NCBI RefSeq assembly: GCF_004138495.1
Contig: NZ_ML142867.1
Span: 115,630-133,405 of the forward strand
Length of the DNA stretch: 17,776 nt
Source: Phytoactinopolyspora endophytica
GTDB taxonomy: Bacteria; Actinomycetota; Actinomycetes; Jiangellales; Jiangellaceae
Direction: 5' to 3'
The translations under genes were made by a program, and so were the position numbers. Position 1 is the stretch's first letter; every line of letters starts with the position of its first letter. The notes under the pieces are model-generated. The model saw nothing but the letters and a program-made list of their open reading frames with translations. It was not told where the DNA came from and searched no databases. Below are positions 2,828 to 17,776 of the stretch, one piece after another.

Positions 2828-3842
2828 CTACGCGGAATTCGCTGCTACGCCCCTGCTGCCGTCGTTGCTCGCGGCCATCAGCTGTTCGAGTGTCTCGGTG
2901 GGCACATTCACCCCTGGGAAGTTGCGGAACGTTCTCATCGGCATCGAGCCGATCAGGTTCAGAACATCCTGGCCTTGATCGCTGTCGTCGGCTTCGCTCG
3001 TGCCGGACCATCGCTGCAGCGAGGCGACAAGAGCAAGGGCGGCTACCGTAGCGACCTCACGGATCAGCTCGACCTGGGCCGACGGTAGATCGAGGTGCTC
3101 TCGGTCGAAGCCTTCGGACTCGTCGTGATCGGCAAGTCCGACGAACACCACGGCTACGTCCGCATCCTCCGCTGCCCGAACGACCTCGGCACGCAGGGCC
3201 GCTGAGTCGCTGCGCTCCTCGAGCGCGAAGCCTGGCGCGTACCGCAAGGTCTGGCCATGCTCGGCCGCCAGCACCCGCATGGCGTCCAGCGCGGAGTCGG
3301 TCTGGTGCGCGTTGATGTGTGAGCTTCCGCCGCCTTGGAAGCGCGGAGCCTCGGCGAAGTGCCCGATCACCGCGAGGGTCCCGGCGCTCTCCAGGGGCAG
3401 CACCGGGCCGTCGTTCTTCAGCAGGACCGCGCAGTCTGCGGCCAAACGGCGGGCCAGGTCATGATGCTCGTCCAGGTCGACGCCGCCGGCCCCGTCGGCC
3501 GCGTTCGTCGGCGGCCGCCGCGCCACGCCCAGTCAGGGCGATCACCCGTCGCACACTCGCCTCGACTAGAGCCTCGTCCACCTCGCCGCGGCGGACCGCC
3601 TCCACGATCTCGGCGTCGGTCGCGCCTCCGGTGCCGGGCATCTGCAGGTCGAGGCCCGCCTTCAGGGCGGCCACCCGGTCGAGGACCGCGCCGCAGTCGG
3701 AGACCACCGCACCCCGGAATCCCCAATCGCCCCGCAGCACCTCGGTGAGCAGCCACCGGTTCTCCGAGGCATACACGCCGTTGATCTTGTTGTAGGAACA
3801 CATCACCGTCGCCGGCTGCGTCTCCCTATCCGGACGCCGGAT
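2828..3842 (-). pseudogene. Broken GH3 beta-glycosidase (three lesions)
   Basis: Remnant of a glycoside hydrolase family 3 enzyme (exo-acting beta-glucosidase/xylosidase type). The first part reads in one frame (about 3842 down to 3530) with QPATVMCSYNKINGVYASEN, then GDWGFRGAVVSDCGAV, where Asp (3696-3698) is the catalytic nucleophile, then DLQMPG. The frame shifts near 3500-3545 and continues with HHDLARRLAADCAVLLKN, the start of the GH3 C-terminal domain, then ADVAVVFVGLADHDESEGFD. After LPSAQVELIREVA the protein jumps to GSMPMRTFRNFPG, a sequence normally at the extreme C-terminus, so several hundred residues including the fibronectin-like domain are absent. The N-terminal part of the barrel is also missing: homology begins about 20-40 bases after the esterase stop. 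The usual Trp after the nucleophile is Cys. No functional product is expected. Confidence 0.85.
3828..3842. repeat. Perfect short inverted repeat at the esterase/GH3 junction
   Basis: ATCCGG-ACG-CCGGAT is a 6+3+6 inverted repeat lying between the esterase stop codon and the first recognisable GH3 residues, at the presumed rearrangement point. It could mark the recombination site or act as a weak hairpin after the esterase; no T-tract follows. Confidence 0.4.
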
Positions 3843-3859: not shown

Positions 3860-5203
3860 TTACTGGGCGAACAGCCAGTCGATGATGACGTCGTTCGTGT
3901 AGGTCGGGATCCACGAACCGTGATCGAACAGGGGCGTCGTGCCGGCGGGGAACGTGGTGAAGATGTGGTTGCTCCTTGTCGCGAGCGCTCGGTCGCGCGC
4001 CTCGGCGGCGTACGCCTCTTGGGCCGCGTCCGGGGCAGTGCCTGCCCACTCGCTCCACGTGACCGGGTAGCCGGCCGCCTCGATCGCGGTGAAGATGCGG
4101 TAGTCCGAGCCCGGCTGGTCGTAGGCGACGATCGAGTCGTCGATAGAGTGCACGGCCCAGATCGGGAATTCGCCCAATGTCGACGCGGCCGCCGCCTCGT
4201 CGCCGCCGGCGCCGCAGACGAGGATCGCGCCGGCGAAGAGGTCGTGGTATTCGGGCAGCAGGCCCCAGGATCCGTACGACCCCATAGATAGACCGGTGAG
4301 ATAGACCCGGTCCGGGTCGATGGCCGGATTCTCCGCCAGCGTCTTGCGCACCAGCTCGACGACGGCCTCCTGCATCGGCGGATCCCACCAGCCGCCGGTG
4401 TCCGGCGTCAGCGGATCCGCTTGCGGGGACAGGACGAAGGCCGGGTGCCGGGCCTGACGTTCGGGATCGGCGAACGCCACCGAGATCTGGTTGCCGGCGA
4501 TCTGGCTGACGTTGTTCGTCCCGCTCTCGCCGTAGCCGTGCAGCGTGACCACCAGCGGGTAGGTCTTCCGACCCGTCACGTCCGGCGAGTACATCCGGTA
4601 CGGCAGGGTCACACCCGCTTCGGCGTCGAACGTTCCGCCGTCGTACTCGTCGACGATCAGGGTATCGACGGCCGAATTGGCCAATACGTTGCCGGGCTGG
4701 GCCTCGATCGTGTGTGGCCGCGCGTCGATGTCCATGACCTGGGCCACGTCGTACGCGCCGTCGAGGTCGTAGAACCGCGTGTAAACGTCGTTGTAGGAGG
4801 CGCCGGCGAGGTCGTCGTTCTCATGCAGCTCCAGGATGACGAACCTGCCGGGCCGCTGCCGGTCGGTGAACTCCGGCGTCCGGTTCGTGTAGGCGTCGAC
4901 CACCGTGCGATCCCCGACGAGTGGCTCGGCCCCCGGGCGCTCCAGGGTGGCCTCGACGTCGAACGCGTCCTCGTCGATGGCATCGCGGCCGACGTGGACG
5001 ACGCCGTCGTACTCGACCGCGAGGCCGGTGACCTTGAGGCCGAGTGGTGTCACCTCGGTGATGACGGTGGAGTCCACGACGGTGAGCTCGTGACCTCCCG
5101 CAGCAGCTGTAGCGGCTGTGGCGGCCGCGCCACCGGCTACGACAGACGCAGCGACAAGGGACGTGGTGATCAGCGCGGCGCCACGTATGGCGTGACTCTT
5201 CAT
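3860..5203 (-). CDS. Secreted alpha/beta-hydrolase esterase with N-terminal Ig-like domain
   Basis: A 447-residue exported serine hydrolase. A signal peptide occupies about residues 1-36 (basic start, long Ala/Val core, no lipobox Cys). Residues about 38-190 form a beta-rich region resembling the Ig-like N-terminal domain of EstA-type esterases. The hydrolase domain (about 197-447) has the oxyanion element LHGYGESG (221-228), the nucleophile elbow GLSMG with Ser306, an Asp in VHSIDDS (355/356) and a His in FDHGSW (His428), in the order expected for a catalytic triad. The class includes polyhydroxyalkanoate depolymerase-like and CE1-like carboxylesterases. Removal of acyl groups from plant polysaccharide is plausible here but not shown. 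It follows the ABC ATPase gene by 62 bases, with AGGAG six bases before the ATG. Its leader and first codons closely match those of the family 5 binding protein. It ends next to the broken GH3 gene. Confidence 0.88.
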   Translation of the reverse strand: MKSHAIRGAALITTSLVAASVVAGGAAATAATAAAGGHELTVVDSTVITEVTPLGLKVTGLAVEYDGVVHVGRDAIDEDAFDVEATLERPGAEPLVGDRTVVDAYTNRTPEFTDRQRPGRFVILELHENDDLAGASYNDVYTRFYDLDGAYDVAQVMDIDARPHTIEAQPGNVLANSAVDTLIVDEYDGGTFDAEAGVTLPYRMYSPDVTGRKTYPLVVTLHGYGESGTNNVSQIAGNQISVAFADPERQARHPAFVLSPQADPLTPDTGGWWDPPMQEAVVELVRKTLAENPAIDPDRVYLTGLSMGSYGSWGLLPEYHDLFAGAILVCGAGGDEAAAASTLGEFPIWAVHSIDDSIVAYDQPGSDYRIFTAIEAAGYPVTWSEWAGTAPDAAQEAYAAEARDRALATRSNHIFTTFPAGTTPLFDHGSWIPTYTNDVIIDWLFAQ

Positions 5204-5265: not shown

Positions 5266-6141
5266 TCAGCCGATGCCGATCGCGGCGCCGGCCTGCTCGT
5301 CTGCCTCGGCCTGGGCGGCCAGCAGGCGGTGCCGGTCGGCGCGTCGCTGCTCTTGACGGTCCGGATCGGGAACGGGTGCGGCCATGAGCAGCCGCTGGGT
5401 GTAGGGGTGATCGGGGTGCGCGGTGACCTGGTCGCCGTCGCCGGATTCGACGATCTCGCCGCGGTACATGACCGCGACCCGATGGCTGATGTGCCGCACC
5501 ACGGCGAGGTCGTGTGAGATGAACAGGTAGGCCACGCCGTTGCGCTCCTGGATCTCGATGAACAGGTCGAGCACCCGCGCCTGGGTGGACAGGTCCAGCG
5601 CGGAGACCGGCTCGTCACAGATGATCAGCTTCGGGTCGAGCGCAAGTGCCCGGGCGATGGCGATGCGTTGCCGCTGGCCGCCGCTGAACTCGCGCGGCAG
5701 CCGGGAGCCGGCGTCGGCGGGCAGGTGTACCGCGTCGAGCAGGCCTGCCACCCGCGCCCGGGCCGTCTTGCCCTCCGTTCCGCCCGCGGTGAGGGGCTCG
5801 GCGAGGATCTGCTCGATGGTCATCGCAGGGCTGAGCGAGCTGTACGGATCCTGGAACACCACCTGGATCTCGCTGCTCAACGCCCGCCGTTCCCGCCGTG
5901 ACAGGTGCGCGATGTCGCGCCCGCGGTACTCGATCCGTCCGGCGGTGACCGGTGCGAGCCCGAGCACCGCACGCCCGAGAGTGGTCTTGCCGGAACCGGA
6001 CTCCCCCACCAGCCCGACCGTCTCGTTCTCCAGGATGTCGAGCGACACCCCGTTCAGTGCGCGAAAGCCCGAAGCCCGGAACCCCTTGCCGGGATACACC
6101 ACGTCGAGGTCGCGTACATCGAGTAGCGGTTCCGCGGTCAT
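5266..6141 (-). CDS. Oligopeptide/oligosaccharide ABC transporter ATPase (DppF/OppF-like)
   Basis: One of the two cytoplasmic ATPases driving the Dpp-type importer; 291 residues. Walker A GESGSGKT (46-53), Q-loop VVFQDPYSSLSP (Gln97), signature FSGGQRQRIAIARAL (152-166), Walker B LIICDEP (172-178) and switch His in FISHD (His210) are all intact, so it should hydrolyse ATP. The C-terminal HPDHPYTQRLLMAAPVPDP (about 242-260) is the hallmark extension of the Opp/Dpp ATPase family. About 30 polar residues follow. The ATG overlaps the stop of the fused permease/ATPase gene by four bases (ATGA), implying coupled translation. In carbohydrate loci this family often serves plant oligosaccharide uptake rather than peptides; which applies here is inferred from neighbours. 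Confidence 0.95.
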   Translation of the reverse strand: MTAEPLLDVRDLDVVYPGKGFRASGFRALNGVSLDILENETVGLVGESGSGKTTLGRAVLGLAPVTAGRIEYRGRDIAHLSRRERRALSSEIQVVFQDPYSSLSPAMTIEQILAEPLTAGGTEGKTARARVAGLLDAVHLPADAGSRLPREFSGGQRQRIAIARALALDPKLIICDEPVSALDLSTQARVLDLFIEIQERNGVAYLFISHDLAVVRHISHRVAVMYRGEIVESGDGDQVTAHPDHPYTQRLLMAAPVPDPDRQEQRRADRHRLLAAQAEADEQAGAAIGIG

Positions 6142-8006
6142 CGCACACCGCCCTTCACGTCGGCCCGGACCAGTGCACCCCGCGGCTCGCCGTCGTCGAG
6201 GATCGCCTCGAGCAGCGACCGCGTGTATTGGTGCTCAGCGGCACGGAAGATGGCCCGGACCGGGCCGGTCTCCACGATCCGCCCGTCCTGCATCACCGAG
6301 ACCCGGTCGCACAGGTCAGCGACAACACCGAAGTTGTGCGTGACCAGCAGCAACCCCATGTTTCGCTCCTCCTGAAGGTCGCGCAGCAGGTCCAGCACCT
6401 CGGCCTGCACCGTGACGTCGAGTGCGGTCGTCGGCTCGTCGGCGATGAGCAGCTCGGGATCGGTCGAGACCGCGCCCGCGATGAGCACGCGCTGCGCCAT
6501 GCCGCCCGAGATCTCGTGCGGGTAGGCGGCGAAGGTGCGGCGCGGCTCCGGGATGCCGACGCGGTCGAGCAGCGCGAGCGCCCGCTCGACCGCATCCTTC
6601 TTTCCGAGGCCGAGCGTCACGCGCAACGGCTCGACCAGCTGGCTGCCCACCGTGAATGCCGGGTCGAGATTACTCATCGGCTCCTGCGGGATGTAGCCGA
6701 TCTTCCGGCCGCGGACGCGCAGATAGTCGCGCTCACCGGCGCCCGCCAGCTCCGCGCCACCGAACCGGATGGCCCCGCCCAGCACCCGGCCGCCATCGGG
6801 AAGCAGGCCCAGCACGGCGAACGCGGTCTGCGTCTTGCCGGACCCCGATTCCCCGATCAAGCCGTGCACCTCGCCGCGGCGCACGCGCAGGTCGATCCCG
6901 TGGACCACTCCGGCAACGCCGCCGTCGGCCTGGTGATAACCGACCCGCAGATCCTCGATCCGCAGCAGGTCCTCACCCAGCCCGCCGTCCGCATCGCGCG
7001 GGTCGTCCGGGTGCTCCACCACCGGATGCCGCGCCTGCTCCGGACGGGCCGTATGGTCCGGATTATCTGGATGGTCCCGCCTGCGCGAGGTATCCGGCCG
7101 GTGGTCCCTGCCCTTCCGCCGGCGCCGGGACTTGGCACCGGTGCGTTCCATCTCATCGCGCATGACGTTGGCGAACAGGGTCAGCGCGATCGTGGTAAGC
7201 GCGATGGCCAGCGCGGGCCACAGCATCAGCAACGGTTCCCGGTAGATGTTGTCGAAGCCTTCGTTGAGCATGCTGCCCCAGGTCGGCACCGACAGGTCGC
7301 CGAGCCCGAGGAACTCCAGGCCGGACTGGATGGCGATCGCGATGCCGGTGACGATCGCCGACTGGATGGTGATCGGAGCCCGCACCACGGAGAGGATGTG
7401 CCGGCCGATGATGCGCCCGTCGCCGAGACCGGAGACCCGGGCCGCGTCCACGTACAGCTCGTTGCGCACCGCGGTCACGGCGGCATAGACCAGCCGGAAG
7501 AAGGCCGGCGACAACAGCACGCCGAAGATCGCCATGGACAGCCACACCGACGGTCCGAGCACCGACCGCGCGGCCAGCAGCACCACGATCCCGGGCAGCG
7601 CCATGATCAGGCTGGTCAGCCAGGTCGAGACGGTGTCGAACCACCGACCGTAGTAGCCGGCCAGCAGACCACCGGCCACGCCGATGACCAGCGCCACGGC
7701 CAAGGCCAGCATCGCGGCCGCGATGCTGATCTGAGTGGCGACGAGCAGGCGCGACAGCACATCGCGTCCGGAACCGTCCGTCCCCAGCAGGTACTCCGAG
7801 CCCGGCGGACGGAGGATGTCCTGCAGCGACGCCAGGTTCGGATCGCGCGGCGCGATGAACGAGCCGGCGACCGCCACGACAGCGACCACCGCCAGGAAGC
7901 CCAGCGCAGCGACCGCCGTCGGGTTGCGCAGCAGGCGCCGGAACAGCGACACCTTGGCCACGACGGCCGACGGCGTCTCGAGCGCCGGGTTCGATGCCTC
8001 ACTCAC
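6138..8006 (-). CDS. Fused ABC permease (DppC-like) and ATPase (DppD-like)
   Basis: A 622-residue fusion carrying two subunits usually made separately. Residues about 1-290 are a DppC-type permease: N-terminal helix about 31-51, the family motif LLGTDGSGRDVLSR (73-86), further hydrophobic segments, a coupling loop YVDAARVSGLGDGRIIGRHIL (185-205), and the GLEFLGLGDLSVPTWGSML segment. A charged linker rich in Arg, His, Asp and Pro (about 290-345) leads to the ATPase: Walker A GESGSGKT (385-392), Q-loop IPQEPMSNLDP (Gln441), signature ISGGMAQRVLIAGA (499-512), Walker B LLIADEP (519-525), switch His557 in VTHNFG, and the EHQYTRSLLEAI tail of the Opp/Dpp family. The GTG start overlaps the DppB-like stop by four bases, with AAGGTGAGG five bases upstream. 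Such fusions are known in actinobacteria. The frame is continuous, so this is not a sequencing artefact. Confidence 0.95.
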   Translation of the reverse strand: MSEASNPALETPSAVVAKVSLFRRLLRNPTAVAALGFLAVVAVVAVAGSFIAPRDPNLASLQDILRPPGSEYLLGTDGSGRDVLSRLLVATQISIAAAMLALAVALVIGVAGGLLAGYYGRWFDTVSTWLTSLIMALPGIVVLLAARSVLGPSVWLSMAIFGVLLSPAFFRLVYAAVTAVRNELYVDAARVSGLGDGRIIGRHILSVVRAPITIQSAIVTGIAIAIQSGLEFLGLGDLSVPTWGSMLNEGFDNIYREPLLMLWPALAIALTTIALTLFANVMRDEMERTGAKSRRRRKGRDHRPDTSRRRDHPDNPDHTARPEQARHPVVEHPDDPRDADGGLGEDLLRIEDLRVGYHQADGGVAGVVHGIDLRVRRGEVHGLIGESGSGKTQTAFAVLGLLPDGGRVLGGAIRFGGAELAGAGERDYLRVRGRKIGYIPQEPMSNLDPAFTVGSQLVEPLRVTLGLGKKDAVERALALLDRVGIPEPRRTFAAYPHEISGGMAQRVLIAGAVSTDPELLIADEPTTALDVTVQAEVLDLLRDLQEERNMGLLLVTHNFGVVADLCDRVSVMQDGRIVETGPVRAIFRAAEHQYTRSLLEAILDDGEPRGALVRADVKGGVR

Positions 8007-8944
8007 GACAGCCTCACCTTCGGGTTGAGCGCCGCCTGCAACACATCGATCACCAGGTTCACCACCACTACGACGACGGCCGTAGCGAGCACCAGACCCA
8101 TGACGATCGGAATGTCACCCGACGTGGTGGCCTGCACGGCAAGTTGCCCCAGACCCGGAATCGCAAACACCTGCTCGACGATCACCGCGCCGCCCAGCAA
8201 CCCGATGAACTGCACCGCCAGCACGGCCAGCGCTGGGCCGCCCGCATTACGCAGCACATGCTTGAACACCACCCGGCGGAAACCGAGGCCCCGGCTGCGC
8301 AGCGTGCGCACGTAGTCACGGTGCAGAGCGTCGATCACCGAACCGCGCACCTGCTGCGCCACGGCCGCGATCGCGCTGATGGACAAGGCGGCGATCGGCA
8401 GCGTGACCGACGCCAGCCATCCCGTGAAGGACGTCGTGATCGGCGTGTACCCGGTCGCCCTGAACAACCCCAGATTGATCGCGAAGAGCAGCACCAGCCC
8501 CAGGGCCAGCAGGAAACCCGGAACGGCGAACCCCAGGACGGAGACGAACTGCACGAACCGGTCGATCCAGCCGCGCCGGACGGCGGCGAGAACCCCCAGC
8601 ACGACGGCGATGGCCGCGGCCACCAGCGTCGCGCCCAGGACCAGGGACAGCGTGACCGCGAGCCGGCCGGTCACGCTCGTCGTCACCAGCTGGCCGTTGA
8701 ACCAGGACCGGCCGAACTCCCCGGTCACTGCCTGCCCCAGCCAGTCCGTGTACTGCTCCCACAGCGGCCGGTCCAGACCGAGGTTGGCCGCCTTCTGCGC
8801 CACCTGCTCCTGGCTGGCGTTCTGGCCCAGGATGCGGCGGGCAATGTCGCCGCCGCCAGCGTAGAGCAGCGCGTACGCGATCGTCGTGATGACGAGGACC
8901 AGACCGGCGCCGGAAGCCAGGCGCCGAAGCACGAATCGAAGCAT
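8003..8944 (-). CDS. Dipeptide/oligosaccharide ABC permease (DppB/OppB-like)
   Basis: First membrane subunit of the Dpp-type importer; 313 residues. The ATG at 8942-8944 is chosen because MLRFVLRRLASGAGLVLVIT is the typical start of the family, the upstream extension of the open frame is low-complexity, and GGGAG precedes the ATG. Features include the N-terminal helix (about 9-28), a periplasmic region with LGLDRPLWEQYTDWLGQAVTGEFGRS (56-80), helices near 95-121, 131-158, 178-198, 238-260 and 278-302, and the cytoplasmic coupling motif DALHRDYVRTLRSRGLGFRR (205-224). Near the C-terminus EQVFAIPGLGQLAVQA is characteristic. Length fits the family. It lies 37 bases after the binding-protein gene, separated by a possible hairpin, and overlaps the fusion gene by four bases. 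Confidence 0.95.
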   Translation of the reverse strand: MLRFVLRRLASGAGLVLVITTIAYALLYAGGGDIARRILGQNASQEQVAQKAANLGLDRPLWEQYTDWLGQAVTGEFGRSWFNGQLVTTSVTGRLAVTLSLVLGATLVAAAIAVVLGVLAAVRRGWIDRFVQFVSVLGFAVPGFLLALGLVLLFAINLGLFRATGYTPITTSFTGWLASVTLPIAALSISAIAAVAQQVRGSVIDALHRDYVRTLRSRGLGFRRVVFKHVLRNAGGPALAVLAVQFIGLLGGAVIVEQVFAIPGLGQLAVQATTSGDIPIVMGLVLATAVVVVVVNLVIDVLQAALNPKVRLS

Positions 8945-8962
8945 GGGCCACTCCCGTCGTGT

Positions 8963-8991
8963 GGCGAGCCGGGGACTATGCCTAGCTCGCC
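8963..8991 (-). promoter_or_regulatory. Hairpin spanning the binding-protein stop codon
   Basis: GGCGAGC (8985-8991 on the coding strand) and GCTCGCC (8963-8969) can pair in a seven-base all-G/C stem around a 15-base loop that contains the binding-protein TAG. It lies just before the ribosome site of the DppB-like gene. Such structures often reduce expression of the membrane subunits relative to the binding protein. No T-run follows, so an RNA-stability or attenuation role is only possible. Confidence 0.35.
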
Positions 8992-10526
8992 GGCCGGAAA
9001 TCGTAGATCGTCGGATAGGCGTTGGTCGGTACGAGCTCGACCGCGGTGGCGGGATCCGTGGCGAAGCTGCCCTGCGCCCGGTAGAACGGGGCGAACCAGG
9101 CCTGCTCGACGAGGTAGGCGTTGAGTTCGCCCGCCGCGGCGGCCTGCTCGTCCTCGTCACCGAACTGTATGCGCTCCATCAGCTCGTTGACCTCGGGATC
9201 CTCGTACTTGAACGGGTTGAACACGGCGTTGGGCCCGACCATGAACTGGATGAGCTGCCAGTCGGGGTTCTGCTCCAGCGCCATGAACGCCAGCGGGAAC
9301 TTCGGCGCCAGCATGTCGGCGATGTAGTTGTTCCCCGGATCGGTGTACTCGACCGTGACGCCGACGTCGGCGAGCTGCTGCTCCAGCAGCGTGAACGTCG
9401 TCGAGCCGAGCACCGCGGACGTCGGCATGGACAGGGTCAGGTTGTCCGCGTAGCCCGCTTCGGCCAGCAGGTCGCGGGCCTTCTGCGGGTCGTAGGTGTA
9501 GCGGTCGTCGAGCGCCGGGTCGAACGCCTCGGAGGACTCCGGGAAGACCTGCGTGGTCACTGTGCCGTGGCCCTGTTCTATCGCTTGCAGCAGCCCTTCC
9601 CGGTCGAAGGCGTAGTTCAGCGCCTGGCGGACTCTGAGGTCACCGAGTGCCTCGTTCATGGTGCCGCCGCGGTCGAGCAGGAGCAGGCCGTGGAAGTTGA
9701 GCTCGTCGGCGTGCACCGTCCACCCGGCAGCCCCGACCTCCTCCAGGTTGTCGTTGGTGGACAGCTTGACGCCGTTCGCCTCGCCCGCCTTGACCGCGTT
9801 GAGCGCCGCAGTGGGGTCCTCGAACACCTTGATGGTGACGGCGTCGTAGTGCTGGAGGTCCGGATTCCAGTAGTCGGGGTTCTGCGTGTAGACGTAGCTG
9901 TTGCCCGTGACGGTAGCGCCGGTGTCGAGGACGTACGGACCGGATCCCACCGGGTCGGTGGCGAGATCCTCGTTGTCGAGGACCTCGCCGCTGGCGACGA
10001 GTCCGGGGTCGCGGGTGAGGTAGTTGAGCAACGCCGGGTCCGGGGCGGCGAGGCGGATCTCCACGGTCGTCTCGTCGACCGCCACGGCCTCGTCCACACC
10101 GGCGAGGTAACCGGCGTCCGGCGAGTCGCCGTTCTTGAACCGCTCGAGATTCTCCTTGACGACGTCGGCGGTGAGCATCGAGCCGTCGGTGAACTCCACA
10201 TCGTCGCGCAGCGTCAGCGTGAGCACCGTGTTGTCGTCGTTGTACGACCAGTCGGTGGCCAGGAACGGCTCAATCTCGCCCTCGGGCGTCATGAGCAGCA
10301 GCGTGTCGTACACCGCCTGGTAGAAGGGGGCGTAGTTGCCCCACTCGCTCCCGGCCGGATCGAACGTCGCCGGCGCGCCGATGGCGCCCAGGGTCAACGT
10401 CCCGCCGCTACTGCCGCCGCCGTCATCGCCGCCGGACGACGACGACGGCGATGACGTGTCGCTTCCGCACGCGGCCAAGGCCAATGCGGCGGCCAGCGCG
10501 GTGCCCAGGATGGCATGTCTCTTCAT
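8982..10526 (-). CDS. Family 5 solute-binding lipoprotein (Dpp/Opp type)
   Basis: Extracytoplasmic receptor of the Dpp-type importer; 514 residues. Signal peptide MKRHAILGTALAAALALAAC has a perfect lipobox (LAAC) with Cys20 as the lipid anchor, then a Ser/Gly/Asp spacer (about 21-41). Family 5 features follow: TLTLGAIGAPATFDP, the LATDWSYNDDNTVLTLTLRDDVEFTDG region with LTADVVKENLERFK, DPVGSGPYVL, the NPDYWNPDLQHYDAVTIKVF segment, RVRQALNYAFDREGLLQAI and DPQKARDLLAEAGY. The ligand is not predictable; in loci like this, family 5 proteins commonly bind plant oligosaccharides. The ATG is supported by GAGGAGCAGG upstream. The leader and first codons match those of the esterase gene. It lies 84 bases after the glycosidase gene in the same direction. 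Confidence 0.95.
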   Translation of the reverse strand: MKRHAILGTALAAALALAACGSDTSSPSSSSGGDDGGGSSGGTLTLGAIGAPATFDPAGSEWGNYAPFYQAVYDTLLLMTPEGEIEPFLATDWSYNDDNTVLTLTLRDDVEFTDGSMLTADVVKENLERFKNGDSPDAGYLAGVDEAVAVDETTVEIRLAAPDPALLNYLTRDPGLVASGEVLDNEDLATDPVGSGPYVLDTGATVTGNSYVYTQNPDYWNPDLQHYDAVTIKVFEDPTAALNAVKAGEANGVKLSTNDNLEEVGAAGWTVHADELNFHGLLLLDRGGTMNEALGDLRVRQALNYAFDREGLLQAIEQGHGTVTTQVFPESSEAFDPALDDRYTYDPQKARDLLAEAGYADNLTLSMPTSAVLGSTTFTLLEQQLADVGVTVEYTDPGNNYIADMLAPKFPLAFMALEQNPDWQLIQFMVGPNAVFNPFKYEDPEVNELMERIQFGDEDEQAAAAGELNAYLVEQAWFAPFYRAQGSFATDPATAVELVPTNAYPTIYDFRPAS

Positions 10527-10610: not shown

Positions 10611-12365
10611 CTACTCCGCCGCCGTGAGGCGCAGCGCCACGTACTGCCGGCCGGGTAGCTGGATGGTGAACGTGCCCTCGTAAGTGCCGTCGACGGGTTC
10701 GATCGTCATGTTCCAGGTGTCAATGACCTCGACGCGGTACCGGACCCCCGGCGGGAGGGACACGGTACGGAAGCGGGGGCGGTTGAACCCGAAGTAGAGA
10801 ATGACGTACTCCCCCGCCACGCCGCCCCACGGCGTGTCCCACTCGGATGGCAACGGGTCGAGGACGCCGCGTGGCGCCTCGGCCACGATGGAGGCCAGGA
10901 ACCGGATCCGTTCCGGGCTGTCGCCCTTCAACACCCCGCCCTTCGCCCACCAGATGACCTCGTCGTCGGCGAAGTAGGTCTCGCCGTGCTGCACGTAGCC
11001 GCCGCGGACGGCACCCTCCCAGCAGCGACGGACCATCTCCTCCGCGGTGATGTTGCCCCACCCCTGATCGAGGTCGCCCTCGTAGGCGCATTCGTCGACG
11101 ACGACCGCCTTGCCCCACTCCTCGCGCCAGGCGTCGATGTTCTCGGCCGTTCGATAGACGTCGATCCGCTGCATGCTGGCGTGGGTAATCCACGGCTTCG
11201 AGTAGTCGTAGAAGCCGAAGCAGTTGTGGATCGAGATGAGGTGGCCGGCGTGATCGTTGTCGACAACGACGGCGGCGAGCCGTTCCCAGTCCTCGATGCT
11301 CTTCGTCCACATCAGGTCGTACTCGTTCGCCATCGACCACCAGATATTGGGATATGCGGCGAGCCGCCTGACCAGGTACGTCACGTATCGGTCATCGGCG
11401 GCCCGGCCCAGGTCGGCGAAACCCCACCGGTCGTACGGATGGAAGATTATGAGGTCCGCCTGCACGCCGATCGCGTCGAGCTGGGCGATGCGGTTCTCCA
11501 GGTGACGGAAGTACTCGACGTCGAATCGCGTGGTGTCCCAGCCGCCGTCCTCGTTCCGGGCGTACGGGTATCGGGGCGGTTCGTTCGTGTTGTAGAGGTA
11601 CGACTTCGGGAACACACACATCCGCACCTTGTTGAACGGCGACGCCTGCAACGATGCGAGTGTCTGCGCTTCCAGGTCATCACCTTGGTGCGTCCACGCG
11701 TATGCCGTCGTGCCGAACGGGGCGTACCGAGTCCCGTCGGCGTGCCGGAAATGAAACTGATCCGCGACCCGCACCCGGCCGGGGTTCTCAGACGGCGTGA
11801 TCTCGAACGTGCTCGAGACGCCGTTCAGCGATCGGGCCGTCGACGACGACGTGAATCGCCACGTGCCTGTCTCTTCAGGCAGAAGGCGGACCAGGTAGCG
11901 CCCGTCCCCGTCGTAGAACCCACCGACGCGCAGCTCGGAGCCGGCGGGCGACACGAAGGTCACCGTGAGCTCGACGTCGACGAAGGGGTTGCCGTGCGCC
12001 GGGCCGTCGAAGGCGATCTCGAACGGGGCGTGCACCGGACCTGATCCGGCAGCGCGAACGGCTGCCGAACCTTCCGCGACGTCGTCGGGCTCGTAGTCAA
12101 GGCGTGGCTCGATCGGGGCAGCCTCGACCCGCGGCGGCGTGGTGTCGTCGATCTGGGCCATCTCTTCCCAGAACTGCTTGCGTGCCTGCTCGTCTACTCG
12201 CATCGCCGGATCGCGATCGACGAGGACACCCACGGGCATGCTGCTGAGATTCTGCACCATGGGTGAGTTGGCGACCCCAGGGACCGCCTTTTCCAGCAGC
12301 GCTCTGGCCCTCGGATTGGCGAGGACCGCGCTCAGGCGGGACTCGGAGGAGAAAGTCCGGCTCAT
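10611..12365 (-). CDS. DUF5060/apiosidase-like TIM-barrel/DUF5605 glycoside hydrolase, cytoplasmic
   Basis: A 584-residue putative glycosidase without signal peptide, so expected to act on imported substrate. A helical N-terminal segment (about 8-75, with LANPRARALLEKAVPG) precedes a beta-sandwich like DUF5060 (about 112-195, 'FEIAFDGPAHGNPFVDVELTV', 'GFYDGDGRYLVRLLPEETG'). The TIM barrel of the DUF4038/apiosidase-like superfamily (about 203-500) starts FHFRHADGTRYAPFGTTAYAW. Candidate catalytic acids are Glu348 in WWSMANEYD (end of strand 4) and Glu425 in VVVDECAYEG (strand 7), the spacing of a retaining GH-A-type enzyme. A C-terminal beta domain (about 505-584, EYVILYFGFNRP) matches DUF5605. 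Characterised apiosidases (GH140) share the fold but not necessarily these acids, so the sugar cleaved is open. First gene of the minus-strand unit, with GGAGAG before the ATG. Confident on architecture, not on substrate. Confidence 0.85.
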   Translation of the reverse strand: MSRTFSSESRLSAVLANPRARALLEKAVPGVANSPMVQNLSSMPVGVLVDRDPAMRVDEQARKQFWEEMAQIDDTTPPRVEAAPIEPRLDYEPDDVAEGSAAVRAAGSGPVHAPFEIAFDGPAHGNPFVDVELTVTFVSPAGSELRVGGFYDGDGRYLVRLLPEETGTWRFTSSSTARSLNGVSSTFEITPSENPGRVRVADQFHFRHADGTRYAPFGTTAYAWTHQGDDLEAQTLASLQASPFNKVRMCVFPKSYLYNTNEPPRYPYARNEDGGWDTTRFDVEYFRHLENRIAQLDAIGVQADLIIFHPYDRWGFADLGRAADDRYVTYLVRRLAAYPNIWWSMANEYDLMWTKSIEDWERLAAVVVDNDHAGHLISIHNCFGFYDYSKPWITHASMQRIDVYRTAENIDAWREEWGKAVVVDECAYEGDLDQGWGNITAEEMVRRCWEGAVRGGYVQHGETYFADDEVIWWAKGGVLKGDSPERIRFLASIVAEAPRGVLDPLPSEWDTPWGGVAGEYVILYFGFNRPRFRTVSLPPGVRYRVEVIDTWNMTIEPVDGTYEGTFTIQLPGRQYVALRLTAAE

Positions 12366-12481
12366 GAGCTCTCCAATGCTTAAGTTGGCGGGACACCTGC
12401 GGCCGCGTGGCGCCGACGTCCCGTTGCGCCCCCGAGAAGCCGGTCACGGTTTGCGCAGCGTGTGAGGCCTTGTGTCCGGGG

Positions 12482-12510
12482 ACTGTAGCACCGTTCCACC
12501 ATGTGTGCAA
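12482..12510 (-). promoter_or_regulatory. Putative promoter for the glycosidase/importer unit
   Basis: On the minus strand TTGCAC (12505-12510) and TACAGT (12482-12487) are separated by exactly 17 bases, a good primary-sigma promoter. Transcription would start near 12475, giving a leader of about 110 bases before the glycosidase ATG. The -35 hexamer is one arm of an inverted repeat shared with the divergent operon. Confidence 0.55.
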
Positions 12511-12544
12511 TTCCACCCGCTATTGAATGGACATGACTTTGCAC
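12505..12544. promoter_or_regulatory. Inverted repeat between divergent promoters, candidate operator
   Basis: GTGCAA (12505-12510) and TTGCAC (12539-12544) face each other about 34 bases apart, start to start, roughly three helical turns. The left arm overlaps the -35 of the leftward promoter; the right arm abuts the -35 of the rightward one. A multimeric regulator such as the SorC-family protein encoded at 16950 could bridge both, but binding is inferred only from position. Confidence 0.35.
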
Positions 12545-12573
12545 TTGCGCCGCCCTCCCGGATGCGACATTAT
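12545..12573 (+). promoter_or_regulatory. Putative promoter for the transketolase/kinase/isomerase operon
   Basis: TTGCGC (12545-12550) and CATTAT (12568-12573) are 17 bases apart on the plus strand. The predicted start near 12580 would leave an untranslated leader of under 30 bases before the first ATG of the operon. The -35 is only partly consensus, which would suit an activated or repressed promoter. Confidence 0.45.
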
Positions 12574-12607
12574 GGGCACACCCATTCGCTCCTGACTAGG
12601 TATGCTC

Positions 12608-13489
12608 ATGATGATTGCTGCACCAGATTCGCTGCGGGACTGGCAGGCCGAGCGCTCGGAGATCGCCCAGCTGCCCACCACGGCCGCAGGTGAACGCCTA
12701 CGCGCCCGCGCACAGCGCACCCGGCGGTCGATCATCCGCATGATCGACCAGGCCGGCGCCGGTCACATCGGCGGGGATCTGTCCGCCACCGACATCCTCA
12801 CTTCTGTCTTCTTCGGCGTCATGCGGGTCGATCCGAACGAACCGACGGCGCCCGATCGGGACTGCTTCATCCTGAGCAAAGGCCACTGCGCCGCCGCGCT
12901 CTACTCCACGCTCGCCGCGGCCGGGTACGTCGACGAGCGCGAGCTGGACACCTTCATGGCGCCCGGCTCCGCACTGAACGGTCACCCGAGCCGAGGGAAA
13001 GTGGCCGGGGTGGAGACCAGCACCGGGCCGCTCGGCCACGGCCTGCCGGTCGGCGTCGGCACCGCCATCGCGGCCAAGCTCACCGGTTCGGACGCCCGGA
13101 CCTACGTCGTCACCGGCGACGGCGAGATGCAGGAAGGCAGCAACTGGGAGGCACTCATGTCCGCCGCCCAGTACCACCTGGACAACCTGACCCTGATCGT
13201 CGACCGCAACCGGCTCCAGCAGGGTGCCCGGACCGAGGAGACGAACGGCCTGGATCCGTTGGACACAAAGCTGGCGAGCTTCGGCTGGGACGTCCGGGAG
13301 GTTGACGGCCACGACTTCGGCCAGCTGCTCACCGCGCTGACGACGCCGAGCGACCGACCCGTCGCGATCATCGCCAACACCATCAAGGGCAAAGGGGTCT
13401 CGTTCATGGAGGACCGCGTCGAATGGCACCACAAGGTGCCGGACGCCGAGCAAGTGCGGCGCGCGCTCGCAGAGCTGGAGCCGGCGTGA
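12608..13489 (+). CDS. Transketolase, N-terminal (TPP-binding) subunit
   Basis: Thiamine-diphosphate-binding half of a split transketolase; 293 residues from the ATG at 12608. CTAGG at 12596-12600 is correctly spaced for this ATG, while the earlier ATG at 12602 is too close to it. Motifs in order: AGAGHIGGDLSATDIL (49-64), ILSKGHCAAALYSTLAAAGY (88-107), GPLGHGLPVGVGTAIAAKL (140-158), and the TPP/Mg motif GDGEMQEGSNWEAL (170-183) ending in IVDRNRLQQ. The C-terminal IKGKGVSFMED is also standard. With the next gene it makes a complete transketolase transferring a two-carbon ketol unit. Stand-alone split pairs like this are common in sugar operons and are distinct from the housekeeping single-chain enzyme. 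In characterised D-apiose loci such a pair splits apulose 4-phosphate; here that substrate is an inference from the kinase and isomerase downstream. The stop overlaps the next start by four bases. Confidence 0.95.
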   Translation: MMIAAPDSLRDWQAERSEIAQLPTTAAGERLRARAQRTRRSIIRMIDQAGAGHIGGDLSATDILTSVFFGVMRVDPNEPTAPDRDCFILSKGHCAAALYSTLAAAGYVDERELDTFMAPGSALNGHPSRGKVAGVETSTGPLGHGLPVGVGTAIAAKLTGSDARTYVVTGDGEMQEGSNWEALMSAAQYHLDNLTLIVDRNRLQQGARTEETNGLDPLDTKLASFGWDVREVDGHDFGQLLTALTTPSDRPVAIIANTIKGKGVSFMEDRVEWHHKVPDAEQVRRALAELEPA

Positions 13490-14466
13490 GGGAACAGACG
13501 ACGATCTCGGACGTACCGCCGTTCGACGAGCCTGTGTTCGACAATCGCGTGGCGTTCGCCGAGGAACTTATCGACATCGCACACCGGGACGAGCGGATCG
13601 TCGCGGTCTGCAACGACTCCGTCGGCTCGAGCAATCTGGTGAAGTTCCGCGCGGAGTTCCCGGACCGAGTCATCAACGTCGGCATCGCCGAACAGAACAT
13701 GGTCGGCGTCGGCGCAGGCCTCGCCGCCCGCGGCCTGATCCCGTTCGTCTGCGGCGCGTCGCCGTTCCTGACCGGGCGCGCACTGGAACAGATCAAGGCC
13801 GACATCGCGTACAGCCAGCACAATGTGATCCTGTGCGGGATGAGCCCGGGCATGGCCTACGGCGAGCTCGGCCCGACCCACCATTCGGTCGAGGACCTCA
13901 GCTGGCTCCGCGCCCTGCCCGGTCTGGACATCGTCGTCCCCGCGGACGCGGAACAGACCCGGCTCGCCGTGCGGCAGGCGGCTTCGCACCCACGGCCCAC
14001 GTTCATCCGCGTCGGGCGGTTCAAAGTTCCCGACGTCACGCATGGCGCGGCGAAGCTCGTCCGGGGACGCTTCTCGACCGTTCGCGACGGCGACGACGTG
14101 ACGGTGATCGCCACCGGGACCATGGTCTCCCGGGCACTACAGGCAGCCGACGTCCTCGCCGCCGCCGGGGTGTCCGTCCGCGTGCTGGACGCTGCATACA
14201 TCGCACCGCTCGACATCGAGGCCATTACCGCGGCCGCCGGTGCGACGCGCGGTATTGTCACCGCCGAAGAGGCCAGCGTGTCCGGAGGGCTCGGCGCGGC
14301 CGTCGCCTCCGTCGTCGCACAGCTCCCGGCACCAGCCAGGGCGCCGATGCGGATACTCGGGGTGAACGAGTTCGCTCCCACCGGCAGCACGGCGTATCTC
14401 CTGGACCATTTCGGGCTGAACGTTGACGGTATCGTCACTGCGGTGAAGGAGTTGCTCACCGAATGA
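13486..14466 (+). CDS. Transketolase, C-terminal (pyrimidine-binding) subunit
   Basis: Second half of the split transketolase; 326 residues from GTG at 13486, with GGAG six bases upstream and a GTGA overlap with the N-terminal subunit. The open frame extends further upstream but that part is the other gene read out of frame. The pyrimidine-domain motif INVGIAEQNMVGVGAGLA (63-80) carries the conserved Glu69 that activates TPP. GMSPGMAYGELGPTHHSVED (118-137) holds the active-site histidines, and the C-terminal domain includes EEASVSGGLGAAV (261-273). All key residues are present, so the pair should be active. Gene order N half, C half, kinase, isomerase places it in a catabolic pathway, not in the general pentose phosphate cycle. 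Confidence 0.95.
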   Translation: MREQTTISDVPPFDEPVFDNRVAFAEELIDIAHRDERIVAVCNDSVGSSNLVKFRAEFPDRVINVGIAEQNMVGVGAGLAARGLIPFVCGASPFLTGRALEQIKADIAYSQHNVILCGMSPGMAYGELGPTHHSVEDLSWLRALPGLDIVVPADAEQTRLAVRQAASHPRPTFIRVGRFKVPDVTHGAAKLVRGRFSTVRDGDDVTVIATGTMVSRALQAADVLAAAGVSVRVLDAAYIAPLDIEAITAAAGATRGIVTAEEASVSGGLGAAVASVVAQLPAPARAPMRILGVNEFAPTGSTAYLLDHFGLNVDGIVTAVKELLTE

Positions 14467-15929
14467 GCCGGCGCACGGGGTACGTGATCGCCGTCGATCA
14501 GGGAACCGGATCCACCAAGGCGATCGCGCTCGATCACGCCGGCGACGTCGTCGCGCACGAGTCCGTGCCTACCGGCCAGACGTTCCCGCAGCCGGGATGG
14601 GCGGAGCAGGATCCTCACGAGATCATCGACAGTGTCCGCACGGCGCTCAGCAGGCTCTGTACGCGACTCGATCAGCCGGTGGCGGCGGTGGGTGTCAGCT
14701 CCCAGCGTGAGTCGGTGTTGCTGTGGGACAGCCGCACAGGTCAGCCGGTCAGCCCGCTCATCAGTTGGCAGGATCGTCGCACCGCCGAACTCGCCGCTCG
14801 ACTCAAGGTGCACGACCGGGCGGTGCGGGATACGTCGGGCCTTCCGATCAGCCCGATGTTCTCCGCACTCAAGCTGAACTGGCTCGTCGGCGCCGCCGAC
14901 GGCACGGCCGATGTCACCGCGGGAACAGTCGACGCGTGGATCCTCGCCTGCCTGACCGGCGAGCGCAGGATCGAACAAGGGAACGCCAGCCGGACCCAGC
15001 TCCTGGAGCTGTCCAACGCTCGGTGGAGCCCGGCGCTGCTGGACATTTTCGACATCCCGGTGAGCGTGCTCCCGGACGTCGTGCCGTCGAATCTGCCGTC
15101 GTCGCCGATCCGAGGCATCGACGGCCTCGAAGGCGTCCGGATCACCGGCGTCCTCGCCGACTCCCACGCCGCGTTCTACGCCCACGGCGCCTTTATGCAA
15201 CCGTCGGTCAAGGTCACTTACGGGACGGGCTCGAGCGTTCTCGGCATCGGCGACGGCCGCAGCACGCCCGCACCTGCCGGCCTGGTGAGCACGATCGCGT
15301 GGGCGGCACCTGAGACTGTCTACGCGTTCGAGGGCAACGTTCTCTCGACCGGAAGCACGCTCACCTGGCTTGCGCGGCTGCTGCGACTGACCCCCGACGA
15401 GCTCGCCATGGCGGCGTCGCAGGCGCCTAGCCACTGCGGGGTGGACCTCGTCCCCGCGTTCGCCGGCCTGGGTGCGCCTTGGTGGGACGAGGGCGCCGCC
15501 GGCGTCATCACCGGGCTCACCTTCGACACCGACACGGACGTCATCGCGCGGGCCGCGCTCGAGTCGATCGTCCTTCAGGTGGAAGACGTGCTGGCAGCGG
15601 CAGACCTCCCGGGAGACGCGCCGATCCTCGCCGACGGCGGACCGACCGGCAATCCGTTCCTCATGCAACTTCAAGCCGATTTCAGCCAGCGCACCGTCCA
15701 TCGCGCCGACACCGCCGAACTTTCCGCCGTCGGCGCCGCGCATCTCGCAGGCCTGACCGCCGGCTTCTGGACCGACGACGAACTCGCCGGACTGCCTCGG
15801 CCGCGGACCGTCTTCACACCCGCCATGGACACCGGCGAGGCCGGCACCCGACGCGAGCAGTGGCACGCTGCCGTCGCCATGTCCCGGCTCCACCCTGCCG
15901 CATCAACCACCGCAAAGGAGCACCCATGA
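14463..15929 (+). CDS. FGGY-family carbohydrate kinase
   Basis: ATP-dependent sugar or ketose kinase; 488 residues, normal for the family. The ATG overlaps the transketolase stop by four bases (ATGA). The phosphate loop [14 protein letters not shown] (11-24), [11 protein letters not shown] (41-51), GVSSQRES (77-84), the catalytic Asp in GVLADSHAA (Asp233), adenosine-site [12 protein letters not shown] (252-263), [23 protein letters not shown] (331-353) and [16 protein letters not shown] (391-406) are all intact. The N-terminal motifs look more like the glycerol-kinase side of the family than like XylB. The product is presumably a ketose phosphate fed to the co-encoded transketolase. Apulose kinase is the favoured role by comparison with known D-apiose operons; xylulokinase, erythrulose-type or other pentulose kinases are alternatives. 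Confidence 0.93.
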
Positions 15930-16906
15930 GCGACCGCGAGCAGCTCTTCGGCGCAGGAATCTGGCACTTCGCCACCTACGTCGACCGCTACGCCACCGAC
16001 GGATACGGCGAACCACGCAGCATCATCGACGCGATCCGCCTCGCCGGAAAGGTCCGGGACCTCTCGGTGGTCGACCTCAACTACCCCTTCTTCGGTGGCG
16101 ACTTCTCCAACGACGACGTCGCGGCCGCGTTGAAGGAGGCCGGGCTCGGCGTCATCGGGATCACGCCCGAGATCTACACGCGCACCTTCGCCAAGGGGTC
16201 GTTCACCAACCCAGATCCGGGTGTCCGCGAGCTCGCCCACGACCTCGTCACCAAAGCGGCCGACGTCGTCCGTCACTTCGGAGCCAGCTACGTCAAGCTC
16301 TGGCCGGGCCAGGACGGCTGGGATTACCCGTTCCAGGTCGACCACGGGGCACTGTGGAAGCACTCGCTCGACGGCGTCGGCCGGCTGGCGCAGGAGAACC
16401 CGGATCTGAGATTCGTCATCGAGTACAAGCCTCGCGAACCCCGGGTACACATGAGCTACGACTCCGTGGCCCGGACCCTGCTCGGCATCGAGAAGATCGG
16501 GCTGCCGAACGTAGGCATCCTGCTCGACTTCGGCCACGCCCTCTACGGCGGCGAATCGCCGGCCGACTCGGCCCAGCTCGCCATCGACTACGGGCGTCTG
16601 TTCGGCATGGACGTCAACGACAACCTCCGGGGTTGGGACGACGACATGGTCGCCGGAACCGTGCACCCGATCGAGTTGTTCGAGTTCTTCTGGGTGCTGA
16701 AGAAGAACGATTGGCACGGCGTGTGGCAACTCGACCAGTTCCCCTTCCGCGAGGACAGCGTCGAAGCCGCCGACCTCGCCATCGACTTCCTCAAACGCAT
16801 CCACACCGCACTCGACGTGCTCGACGTGGAGGGACTCCGCGAGGCGCAGGCGAACCACGACGCGCTCGCCGCCCACCGGATCGTCCAGCGCGCCCTCTAC
16901 CACTAG
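15926..16906 (+). CDS. Xylose-isomerase-like TIM-barrel sugar isomerase
   Basis: A 326-residue AP endonuclease/xylose isomerase-superfamily barrel; ATG four-base overlap with the kinase stop and AAAGGAG six bases upstream. Likely metal ligands sit at strand ends: Glu166 in [11 protein letters not shown], Asp201 and His204 in LLDFGHAL, Asp229/Asp232 in GMDVNDN, the WDDDM cluster (237-241) and Asp270 in [11 protein letters not shown]. The DxxH and DDD motifs recall L-rhamnose isomerase-type aldose isomerases more than classical XylA, which is longer. Where related sequences have His in the strand-7 motif, this protein appears to have Asp229. As last gene of the operon it would convert an aldose into the ketose used by the kinase; D-apiose isomerase is the leading candidate. 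Activity and sugar are inferred from context. Confidence 0.85.
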
Positions 16907-16949: not shown

Positions 16950-17776
16950 GTGACGGCTACCGGACCGCAGACGCGTGCCGAACCACAGACGCGGAGGCCA
17001 CCACAGCTCGAGCGCCTAGGCATGCTGACCAAGGTCGCCCGCATGTACCACGAGCAAGGCCTGCGTCAGCCCGAGATCGCCGCGCGTTTGCACCTCTCCC
17101 AATCGCGCGTCTCTAGACTCCTCAAGGAAGCCGTCGACCTAGGGATCGTCCGTACAGTCGTCATCCCGCCCAGCGGGATCTACTCCGACATCGAGGACGC
17201 CATCCGCGACCGGTACGAGCTGGCCGACGTCGTCATCACCGAGGTCTCCGGAGAAGGCGACTCGGCCCTGCTCGCAGCGCTCGGCAGCGCGGCAGGCAGC
17301 TACCTGGAGGCGACGCTGACCGGCTCCGACCATGTAGGGATCTCCTCCTGGTCAGCCACGCTGCTCGCCACCGTCGACTCGATGCAGCCCCGCACCATCC
17401 GTAGCGCCGTCAAGGTCGTGCAGATGATCGGCGGAGTCGGCTCGGCCAACGTCCAGGTCCAAGCGACCCACCTCGCAGACCGCCTGGCCCAGGTCACCGG
17501 GGCAGGCACGACGTTCCTGCCCGCCCCCGGCATCGTCGCGAACAGTAGCGTCCGAGACGCCCTGCTCTCCGACCCGTCGATCCACGACGTCCCGCCGGAG
17601 TGGGACGACCTCACCGTCGGCCTCGTCGGCATCGGGTGCCTCGAACCCTCACCACTGCTCGAATCGTCCGGCAACGCCGTCTCCAAACAAGACCAAGACG
17701 AGCTGCGATCCGCCGGCGCGGTCGGCGACGTCTGCCTGAGGTTCTTCGACATCGACGGCGAACTCGTCGACACACC
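16950..17776 (+). CDS. SorC-family sugar-responsive transcriptional regulator (3' end outside window)
   Basis: The 275 visible residues start at GTG 16950, preceded by AGAGGG; an internal ATG at 17022 is an alternative start that would still include the DNA-binding domain. Residues about 25-68 form a helix-turn-helix (LRQPEIAARLHLSQSRVSRLLKEA), followed by IVRTVVIPP and the SorC/DeoR-type effector domain, recognisable by VVQMIGGVGSANVQVQ, THLADRLAQVTGA, FLPAPGIVA and GLVGIGCLEPS. SorC proteins bind sugar phosphates and control the operon beside them. It lies 43 bases after the isomerase gene in the same direction, so it may be cotranscribed and autoregulated. It is the only regulator in the window and the natural candidate to control the divergent promoters at 12366-12607. 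About 40-60 residues are missing at the right edge, judged from usual family length. Confidence 0.92.
   Translation, partial: MTATGPQTRAEPQTRRPPQLERLGMLTKVARMYHEQGLRQPEIAARLHLSQSRVSRLLKEAVDLGIVRTVVIPPSGIYSDIEDAIRDRYELADVVITEVSGEGDSALLAALGSAAGSYLEATLTGSDHVGISSWSATLLATVDSMQPRTIRSAVKVVQMIGGVGSANVQVQATHLADRLAQVTGAGTTFLPAPGIVANSSVRDALLSDPSIHDVPPEWDDLTVGLVGIGCLEPSPLLESSGNAVSKQDQDELRSAGAVGDVCLRFFDIDGELVDT

Follow-up and report, generated by a model that had tools for sequence, protein, structure and literature searches.

We analyzed a 17,776-nucleotide stretch of the Phytoactinopolyspora endophytica genome (contig NZ_ML142867.1, positions 115,630 to 133,405; hereafter the window), which carries a candidate locus for the use of D-apiose and of compounds that contain it. 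The source is a 7.6-Mb assembly of 64 contigs, and labels beginning with L and G denote the loci and genomes with which it was compared. The genes form two divergent arms, one running rightward and encoding the putative D-apiose route, the other running leftward and encoding a glycosidase and a Dpp-type importer. The features are as follows, with the evidence for each in brackets.

12602-13489, plus strand: transketolase N-terminal half, AptA-like (domain match, comparison with Escherichia coli proteins, motifs)
13486-14466, plus strand: transketolase C-terminal half, AptB-like, GTG start (domain match, E. coli comparison, motifs)
14463-15929, plus strand: FGGY kinase, AplK-like (domain match, E. 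coli comparison, tree)
15926-16906, plus strand: TIM-barrel isomerase, ApsI-like (domain match, PDB match)
16950-17776 and on to about 17960 beyond the window edge, plus strand: SorC-type sugar-binding regulator (domain match)
12584-12607, plus strand: operator-like site at the start of the transketolase operon (20.1 bits)
12515-12538, plus strand: operator-like site (14.2 bits)
10611-12365, minus strand: DUF5060-PF13204-DUF5605 glycosidase, GHapi (domain match)
8982-10526, minus strand: extracellular solute-binding protein of family 5, SBP5 (domain match)
About 8003-8944, minus strand: DppB-type permease; the listed open reading frame, 8003-9160, begins too early (domain match)
6138-8006, minus strand: DppC-type permease fused to a DppD-type ATPase (domain match)
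5266-6141, minus strand: DppF-type ATPase (profile match)
3860-5203, minus strand: esterase with a signal peptide (judged by eye) followed by an EstA Ig-like domain in its N-terminal part
3059-3824, minus strand: remnant of a glycoside hydrolase family 3 (GH3) gene directly behind the esterase, in broken frames and missing its N-terminal part

The four core genes (12602-16906) overlap by 4 bases at each junction. The isomerase start was set at 15926, as the listed open reading frame (15479-16906) begins too far upstream. We infer that the esterase is part of the system. Neither tRNAs nor Rfam families at gathering score were found in the window. Domain and profile matches confirmed the enzyme families that a preliminary description had named at this place, and the divergent Dpp-type importer that it mentioned is present, but at 5266-10526, outside the span of 10611-16906 in which it had been put.

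Apiose, a branched sugar of plants, is a constituent of rhamnogalacturonan-II (RG-II) pectin and of numerous flavonoid glycosides and saponins. Carter et al. reportedly described, in 2018, a D-apiose transketolase route (ApsI, AplK, AptA/AptB) in Pectobacterium and its relatives. The window shares with the Pectobacterium-type route an isomerase, an FGGY kinase, a split transketolase and a SorC-type regulator, at 34-66% identity to E. coli proteins and PDB entry 3ktc. The isomerase aligned with 3ktc over 317 residues (468 bits, 66% identity); this structure was deposited as a “xylose isomerase,” and we take it to be the D-apiose isomerase (ApsI) of Pectobacterium. The second-ranked PDB match was a xylose isomerase, at 65 bits. 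According to the accessible text of PMC13001218, apsI is present in the Pectobacterium cluster and absent from the Escherichia version. The E. coli reference was the apiose cluster of strain SE15 (ECSF_RS02670-RS02715), of which the window has AptA, AptB, AplK and regulator homologs. The kinase is 37% identical to AplK, the transketolase halves are 43% (N-terminal, 274 residues) and 34% (C-terminal, 299 residues) identical to AptA/AptB, and the regulator shares 37% identity with that of the cluster. The transketolase motifs are complete, with GDG...N in the N-terminal half and AEQN in the C-terminal half. Strains of E. coli and E. fergusonii that carry this cluster grow on D-apiose, as stated in the accessible part of PMC13001218. 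The two known systems differ from the window: the E. coli/E. fergusonii cluster lacks the isomerase and has two short-chain dehydrogenase/reductase (SDR) genes and a ribose-type ATP-binding cassette (ABC) importer, and the Pectobacterium-type route has a ribose-type monosaccharide importer, whereas the window has a Dpp-type importer and a cytoplasmic glycosidase, with the isomerase as the last of four coupled genes.

To place the core in a wider context, we examined the gene neighborhoods of the best 80 of 382 isomerase relatives (named loci), which comprise 20 actinobacterial loci, 28 loci of an alphaproteobacterial group that we call AG-type and 32 others. The AG-type genomes, titled AG-, AH- or the like, are single-cell genomes for the most part, with metagenome-assembled genomes among them; two are named Pelagibacteraceae (L017, L049), and the others bear no family name. 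The transketolase N-terminal half occurs near the isomerase in 67 of the 80 loci (16/20 actinobacterial, 25/28 AG-type and 26/32 other). These neighborhood counts are lower bounds because many of the stretches are shorter than 21 kb, and the recurrence indicates that the gene set is no chance arrangement. Transporter, isomerase and transketolase genes stand together in actinobacterial L014, L025 and L026, and three loci of the window's own family (L100-L102) encode an AplK-like kinase, transporter parts, the isomerase and both transketolase halves. A permease at least 50% identical to the E. coli apiose permease is encoded at 27 of the 80 loci (3/20 actinobacterial, 3/28 AG-type and 21/32 other). 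With a looser criterion of E ≤ 1e-20, which is too generous, 50 of the 80 have a relative of the binding protein or permease of the E. coli apiose cluster; the AG-type permeases below 50% (30-35% identity) may be ordinary ribose-type systems. Two observations run counter to a general association of the isomerase with the route: the transketolase N-terminal half was not detected in the long stretches L008, L046, L064, L077, L082 and L083, and Pantoea sp. At-9b has no further annotated route gene within 9 kb of the isomerase, in a gene table that is incomplete. Triosephosphate isomerase, encoded in the cluster of Rhizobium L155, was considered as chemical support and given no weight, as it occurs in only 3/80 loci.

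Based on these comparisons, the isomerase-kinase-transketolase core very probably constitutes a D-apiose route. This is the pathway that the preliminary description had proposed, and it is well supported by the 66% identity to 3ktc, the 34-43% identity to the E. coli proteins and the 67 loci with the transketolase half. The isomerase would convert D-apiose to apulose, and the FGGY kinase would convert apulose to apulose 4-phosphate. The two-part transketolase would then transfer a two-carbon unit onto glyceraldehyde 3-phosphate, and the products would be xylulose 5-phosphate and dihydroxyacetone phosphate.

Several alphaproteobacterial loci (L017, L041, L042, L049, L051 and L062) encode, besides the isomerase, homologs of the two E. 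coli SDR proteins at 52-57%. The SDR pair has been proposed to replace the isomerase in Escherichia (accessible text of PMC13001218). Given that isomerase and SDR pair occur in the same loci, the pair need not be a replacement, and perhaps acts as a reductase and dehydrogenase through apiitol.

The upstream regions of the actinobacterial loci revealed a 24-bp motif with the consensus atTCActagTGAATaGATATGCAa, containing a TTCA-TGAA palindrome, which was found by pattern in 19 of 22 non-window regions (18 distinct sequences). A site in L021 was missed by pattern and scored 30.8 bits with a matrix that was built without the window. Weaker sites, of 18.3 and 15.7 bits, lie ahead of the isomerase in L089 and L091, where the operons start with this gene. 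Further occurrences of the motif are upstream of the apiose transporter genes (L026) and of the regulator (L105 and L111). The best scores of the matrix in the window are the two sites listed above. For comparison, the best score in 200 mononucleotide shuffles of the window had a median of 5.9, with 95% at 13.1 and a maximum of 18.3. The stronger site overlaps the annotated ATG at 12602, so the true start of the transketolase N-terminal half may be the ATG at 12608 or 12611. Both sites fall within the 236-bp region that separates the glycosidase, the first gene of its arm, from the apiose operon. We infer that the SorC-type regulator binds the motif, and it would probably control both arms via the sites in the divergent region. 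The glycosidase and the route had been proposed to share one regulon; the evidence for this consists of the operator-like sites in their shared promoter region.

The glycosidase, which by eye lacks a signal peptide, has a PF13204 “Apiosidase” domain (51.8 bits versus a cut-off of 26.5). Its assignment to the apiosidase superfamily therefore holds at the level of the domain, but does not extend to the catalytic pair or sequence kinship of GH140. Across an alignment of 37 sequences, Glu348 and Glu425 do not vary, and they are likely the catalytic pair. According to the accessible text of PMC4032388, the pair in the GH140 enzyme BT1012 is D187 and E284, and Glu occupies the catalytic Asp position in 17.3% of the PF13204 family. 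Thus, the Glu/Glu pair separates the window glycosidase from BT1012 and not from PF13204. Relative to the GH140 apiosidases BT1012 (PDB 3kzs, 5msy) and 8t9w, the window protein is 15-17% identical, has Glu for the catalytic Asp and carries flanking DUF5060 and DUF5605 domains; it is longer by about 100 N-terminal residues than the uncharacterized BVU_0362 (PDB 4n0r). An assignment as apiosidase by homology to BT1012 was rejected, there being no sequence match, and kinship to GH140 is detectable by fold only. The closest functionally named full-length fold is that of a GH5 mannanase. No glycosidase relatives were found in viral contigs.

Glycosidase and isomerase genes tend to co-occur. In a sample of 296 genomes of the class, with the glycosidase counted at E ≤ 1e-60 and the isomerase at E ≤ 1e-90, the isomerase was detected in 7, the glycosidase in 10 and both in 4 (window genome included; Fisher p 2.2e-5). 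The pair lies within about 5 kb in three of these four (the window, G154:C18 and G213:C1) and on different contigs in G144. Among 249 genomes of a Microbacteriaceae-type sample (family name inferred from named matches), 7 have the isomerase at E ≤ 1e-90 and 29 have the glycosidase; five carry both (p 2.7e-4). In all five double positives, a glycosidase copy shares a contig with the isomerase at a distance of 15-17 kb, and the intervening genes, where scanned, encode a Dpp importer, GH42, GH3 and GH43. A glycosidase relative occurs in 6 of the 32 other loci, all Rhizobiales or Devosia, and in none of the 20 actinobacterial 21-kb stretches because it sits further out. The GH3 remnant in the window is related to the GH3 of the Microbacteriaceae cassette, and the left arm thus resembles a reduced version of this cassette. 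The partner families GH78, GH43, GH3 and GH42 would suit apiosides that carry rhamnose, arabinose and xylose, as some saponin sugars would.

We consider the chances even that the glycosidase is an apiosidase. If it is, SBP5 and the Dpp-type ABC importer would take up a plant-derived, probably apiose-bearing glycoside or oligosaccharide, and the cytoplasmic DUF5060-PF13204-DUF5605 hydrolase would cleave the imported compound. Several results weigh against this. The Asp/Glu pair of GH140 is replaced by Glu/Glu, a phmmer search to E 10 returned only 4n0r plus noise at ≤13.4 bits, and a profile search to E 1 had 4n0r as its sole match, with no GH140 protein. Moreover, 24 of the 29 glycosidase-bearing genomes of the Microbacteriaceae sample lack the isomerase, and a close transketolase N-terminal half was present in none of the 19 examined among those 24 (two had one at 42-47%). 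Eight isomerase-less loci (L117-L122, L134 and L137) carry similar cassettes or parts of them, with no motif site ≥11 bits. The preliminary description had called the locus a candidate for complete apioside use; completeness depends on the glycosidase, a putative apiosidase, and similar glycosidase-importer cassettes exist in genomes without the isomerase.

These results also bear on an alternative to which we give somewhat less than an even chance, namely that the core handles D-apiose and the divergent glycosidase and importer simply neighbor it. In that case the glycosidase would be GH5-like, with oligosaccharides of the pectin side-chain, saponin or mannan type as its substrates, and would release no apiose. 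The invariance of Glu348 and Glu425 and the GH5 mannanase fold are in keeping with this, as are isomerase-free cassettes that combine the Dpp importer and this glycosidase with GH3, GH42 or GH78 enzymes. Furthermore, the importer of glycosidase cassettes repeatedly has a TetR-type regulator gene next to it, and in all five Microbacteriaceae apiose clusters (L106, L108, L109, L112 and L114) the glycosidase piece has no motif site ≥11 bits. However, the window glycosidase heads the arm that faces the apiose operon, with two operator-like sites in the gap between them, and its linkage to the isomerase is repeated in other Actinomycetes (G154, G213), the Microbacteriaceae (5/7) and the other loci (6/32).

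It is improbable that the core metabolizes another sugar (xylose, rhamnose or an unknown aldose) by the same isomerase-kinase-transketolase logic. The isomerase does match the xylose and rhamnose isomerase models, but at 71.0 bits versus a cut-off of 447 (TIGR02631) and 63.5 bits versus 531.35 (TIGR02635), and was rejected as XylA and as L-rhamnose isomerase. A separate XylA is encoded elsewhere in the genome (692.4 bits, above the cut-off) with an FGGY kinase adjoining it. The window kinase was likewise rejected as a glycerol kinase (TIGR01311, 387.9 bits versus 590.35) and as a xylulokinase (TIGR01312, 169.6 bits versus 380.25). It groups with actinobacterial apiose-locus kinases, apart from the genome's own XylB, with a Shimodaira-Hasegawa-like approximate likelihood ratio test (SH-aLRT) value of 99, in a quick tree of 27 rows with long branches that leaves its position relative to AplK and GlpK unsettled. 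Marine-type alphaproteobacterial genomes, where a supply of apiose is not obvious, have isomerases 74-79% identical to that of the window and a close E. coli-type permease in only 3 of 28 loci, which would favor another sugar; permeases close to that of the E. coli apiose cluster, at 21/32 other and 3/20 actinobacterial loci, argue for apiose. The cut-offs, the tree and the genome's own paralogs led us to drop the xylose, rhamnose and glycerol assignments, and the placement of isomerase and kinase with xylose or rhamnose enzymes, singled out in the preliminary description as contrary to its proposal, was examined by sequence and not found. It is very improbable that the system is decaying here, with the rest perhaps silent: the GH3 remnant lacks its N-terminal part and spans several frames, but the eleven other described genes are open and the 4-base overlaps within the core are intact.

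A nucleoside-hydrolase-fold protein is encoded in other apiose loci, of actinobacteria and of Devosia; in some it stands at the place of the glycosidase, and in two it comes directly after an operator-like site. Those listed next either diverge from the transketolase operon or follow an operator-like site.

L018 (Microbacterium sp. STN6), 5534-6469: nucleoside-hydrolase-fold protein
L019, 5623-6567: nucleoside-hydrolase-fold protein
L024, 5592-6539: nucleoside-hydrolase-fold protein
L009 (Occultella gossypii), 5633-6553: nucleoside-hydrolase-fold protein
L013, 12178-13074 and 16471-17325: nucleoside-hydrolase-fold proteins
L093, 3717-4583: nucleoside-hydrolase-fold protein

A nucleoside-hydrolase-fold query matched 27 of 249 other genomes; for this query, the window's own genome has no relative at E ≤ 1e-5, in a search run without a positive control. 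It is conceivable, though rather unlikely, that unrelated folds occupy the glycosidase slot in the apiose loci of actinobacteria and Devosia. One would be the DUF5060-PF13204-DUF5605 protein, as a second, Glu/Glu type of apiosidase, and the other the nucleoside-hydrolase-fold proteins (PF01156 subfamily, PF07632), as metal-dependent O-apiofuranosidases, an activity new to this fold. That the nucleoside-hydrolase-fold proteins are apiosidases is similarly doubtful. Beside their genes, L121 (7121-8971) and L123 (6247-8163) encode proteins of 616-638 amino acids without a Pfam match at 1e-5, a family present in 5 loci.

To our knowledge few apiosidases have been characterized, and the apiosidase papers that we found, by title and the start of the abstract, include none on this enzyme type. 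Our literature search returned nothing on apulose, GH140 with apiose, nucleoside hydrolase with apiose or actinobacterial apioside use, an absence that is weak given that most subscription papers lay outside the search; on the D-apiose route it returned only PMC13001218. The core route is ordinary, and the lead offered by its periphery was not found in print by the searches made. If the locus links uptake and cleavage inside the cell to the apiose route, it would show actinobacteria using such compounds as whole glycosides. Two enzyme families that, as far as our searches went, are not known to act on apiosides are here nominated as apiosidase candidates.

The isomerase is rare, being detected at E ≤ 1e-90 in 4 of 22 genomes of the order and, as noted, in 7 of 296 of the class. 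The window copy is 85% identical to one from Agromyces and 67-68% identical to those of its own family, which suggests that it was gained by transfer. AG-type isomerases are 74-79% identical to it (28 loci, e.g., L017, L020, L023 and L049), and no paper joining apiose and SAR11 was found in the literature search. About 90 kb from the window copy, its contig encodes a distant isomerase paralog (37-39% identity; 39776-40594, L002). Lastly, there is a second sugar system, with a binding protein at 835-2199 of the window and, past its edge (L104:9888-16195), a GHL6 glycosidase, a glycerate kinase and an SDR.

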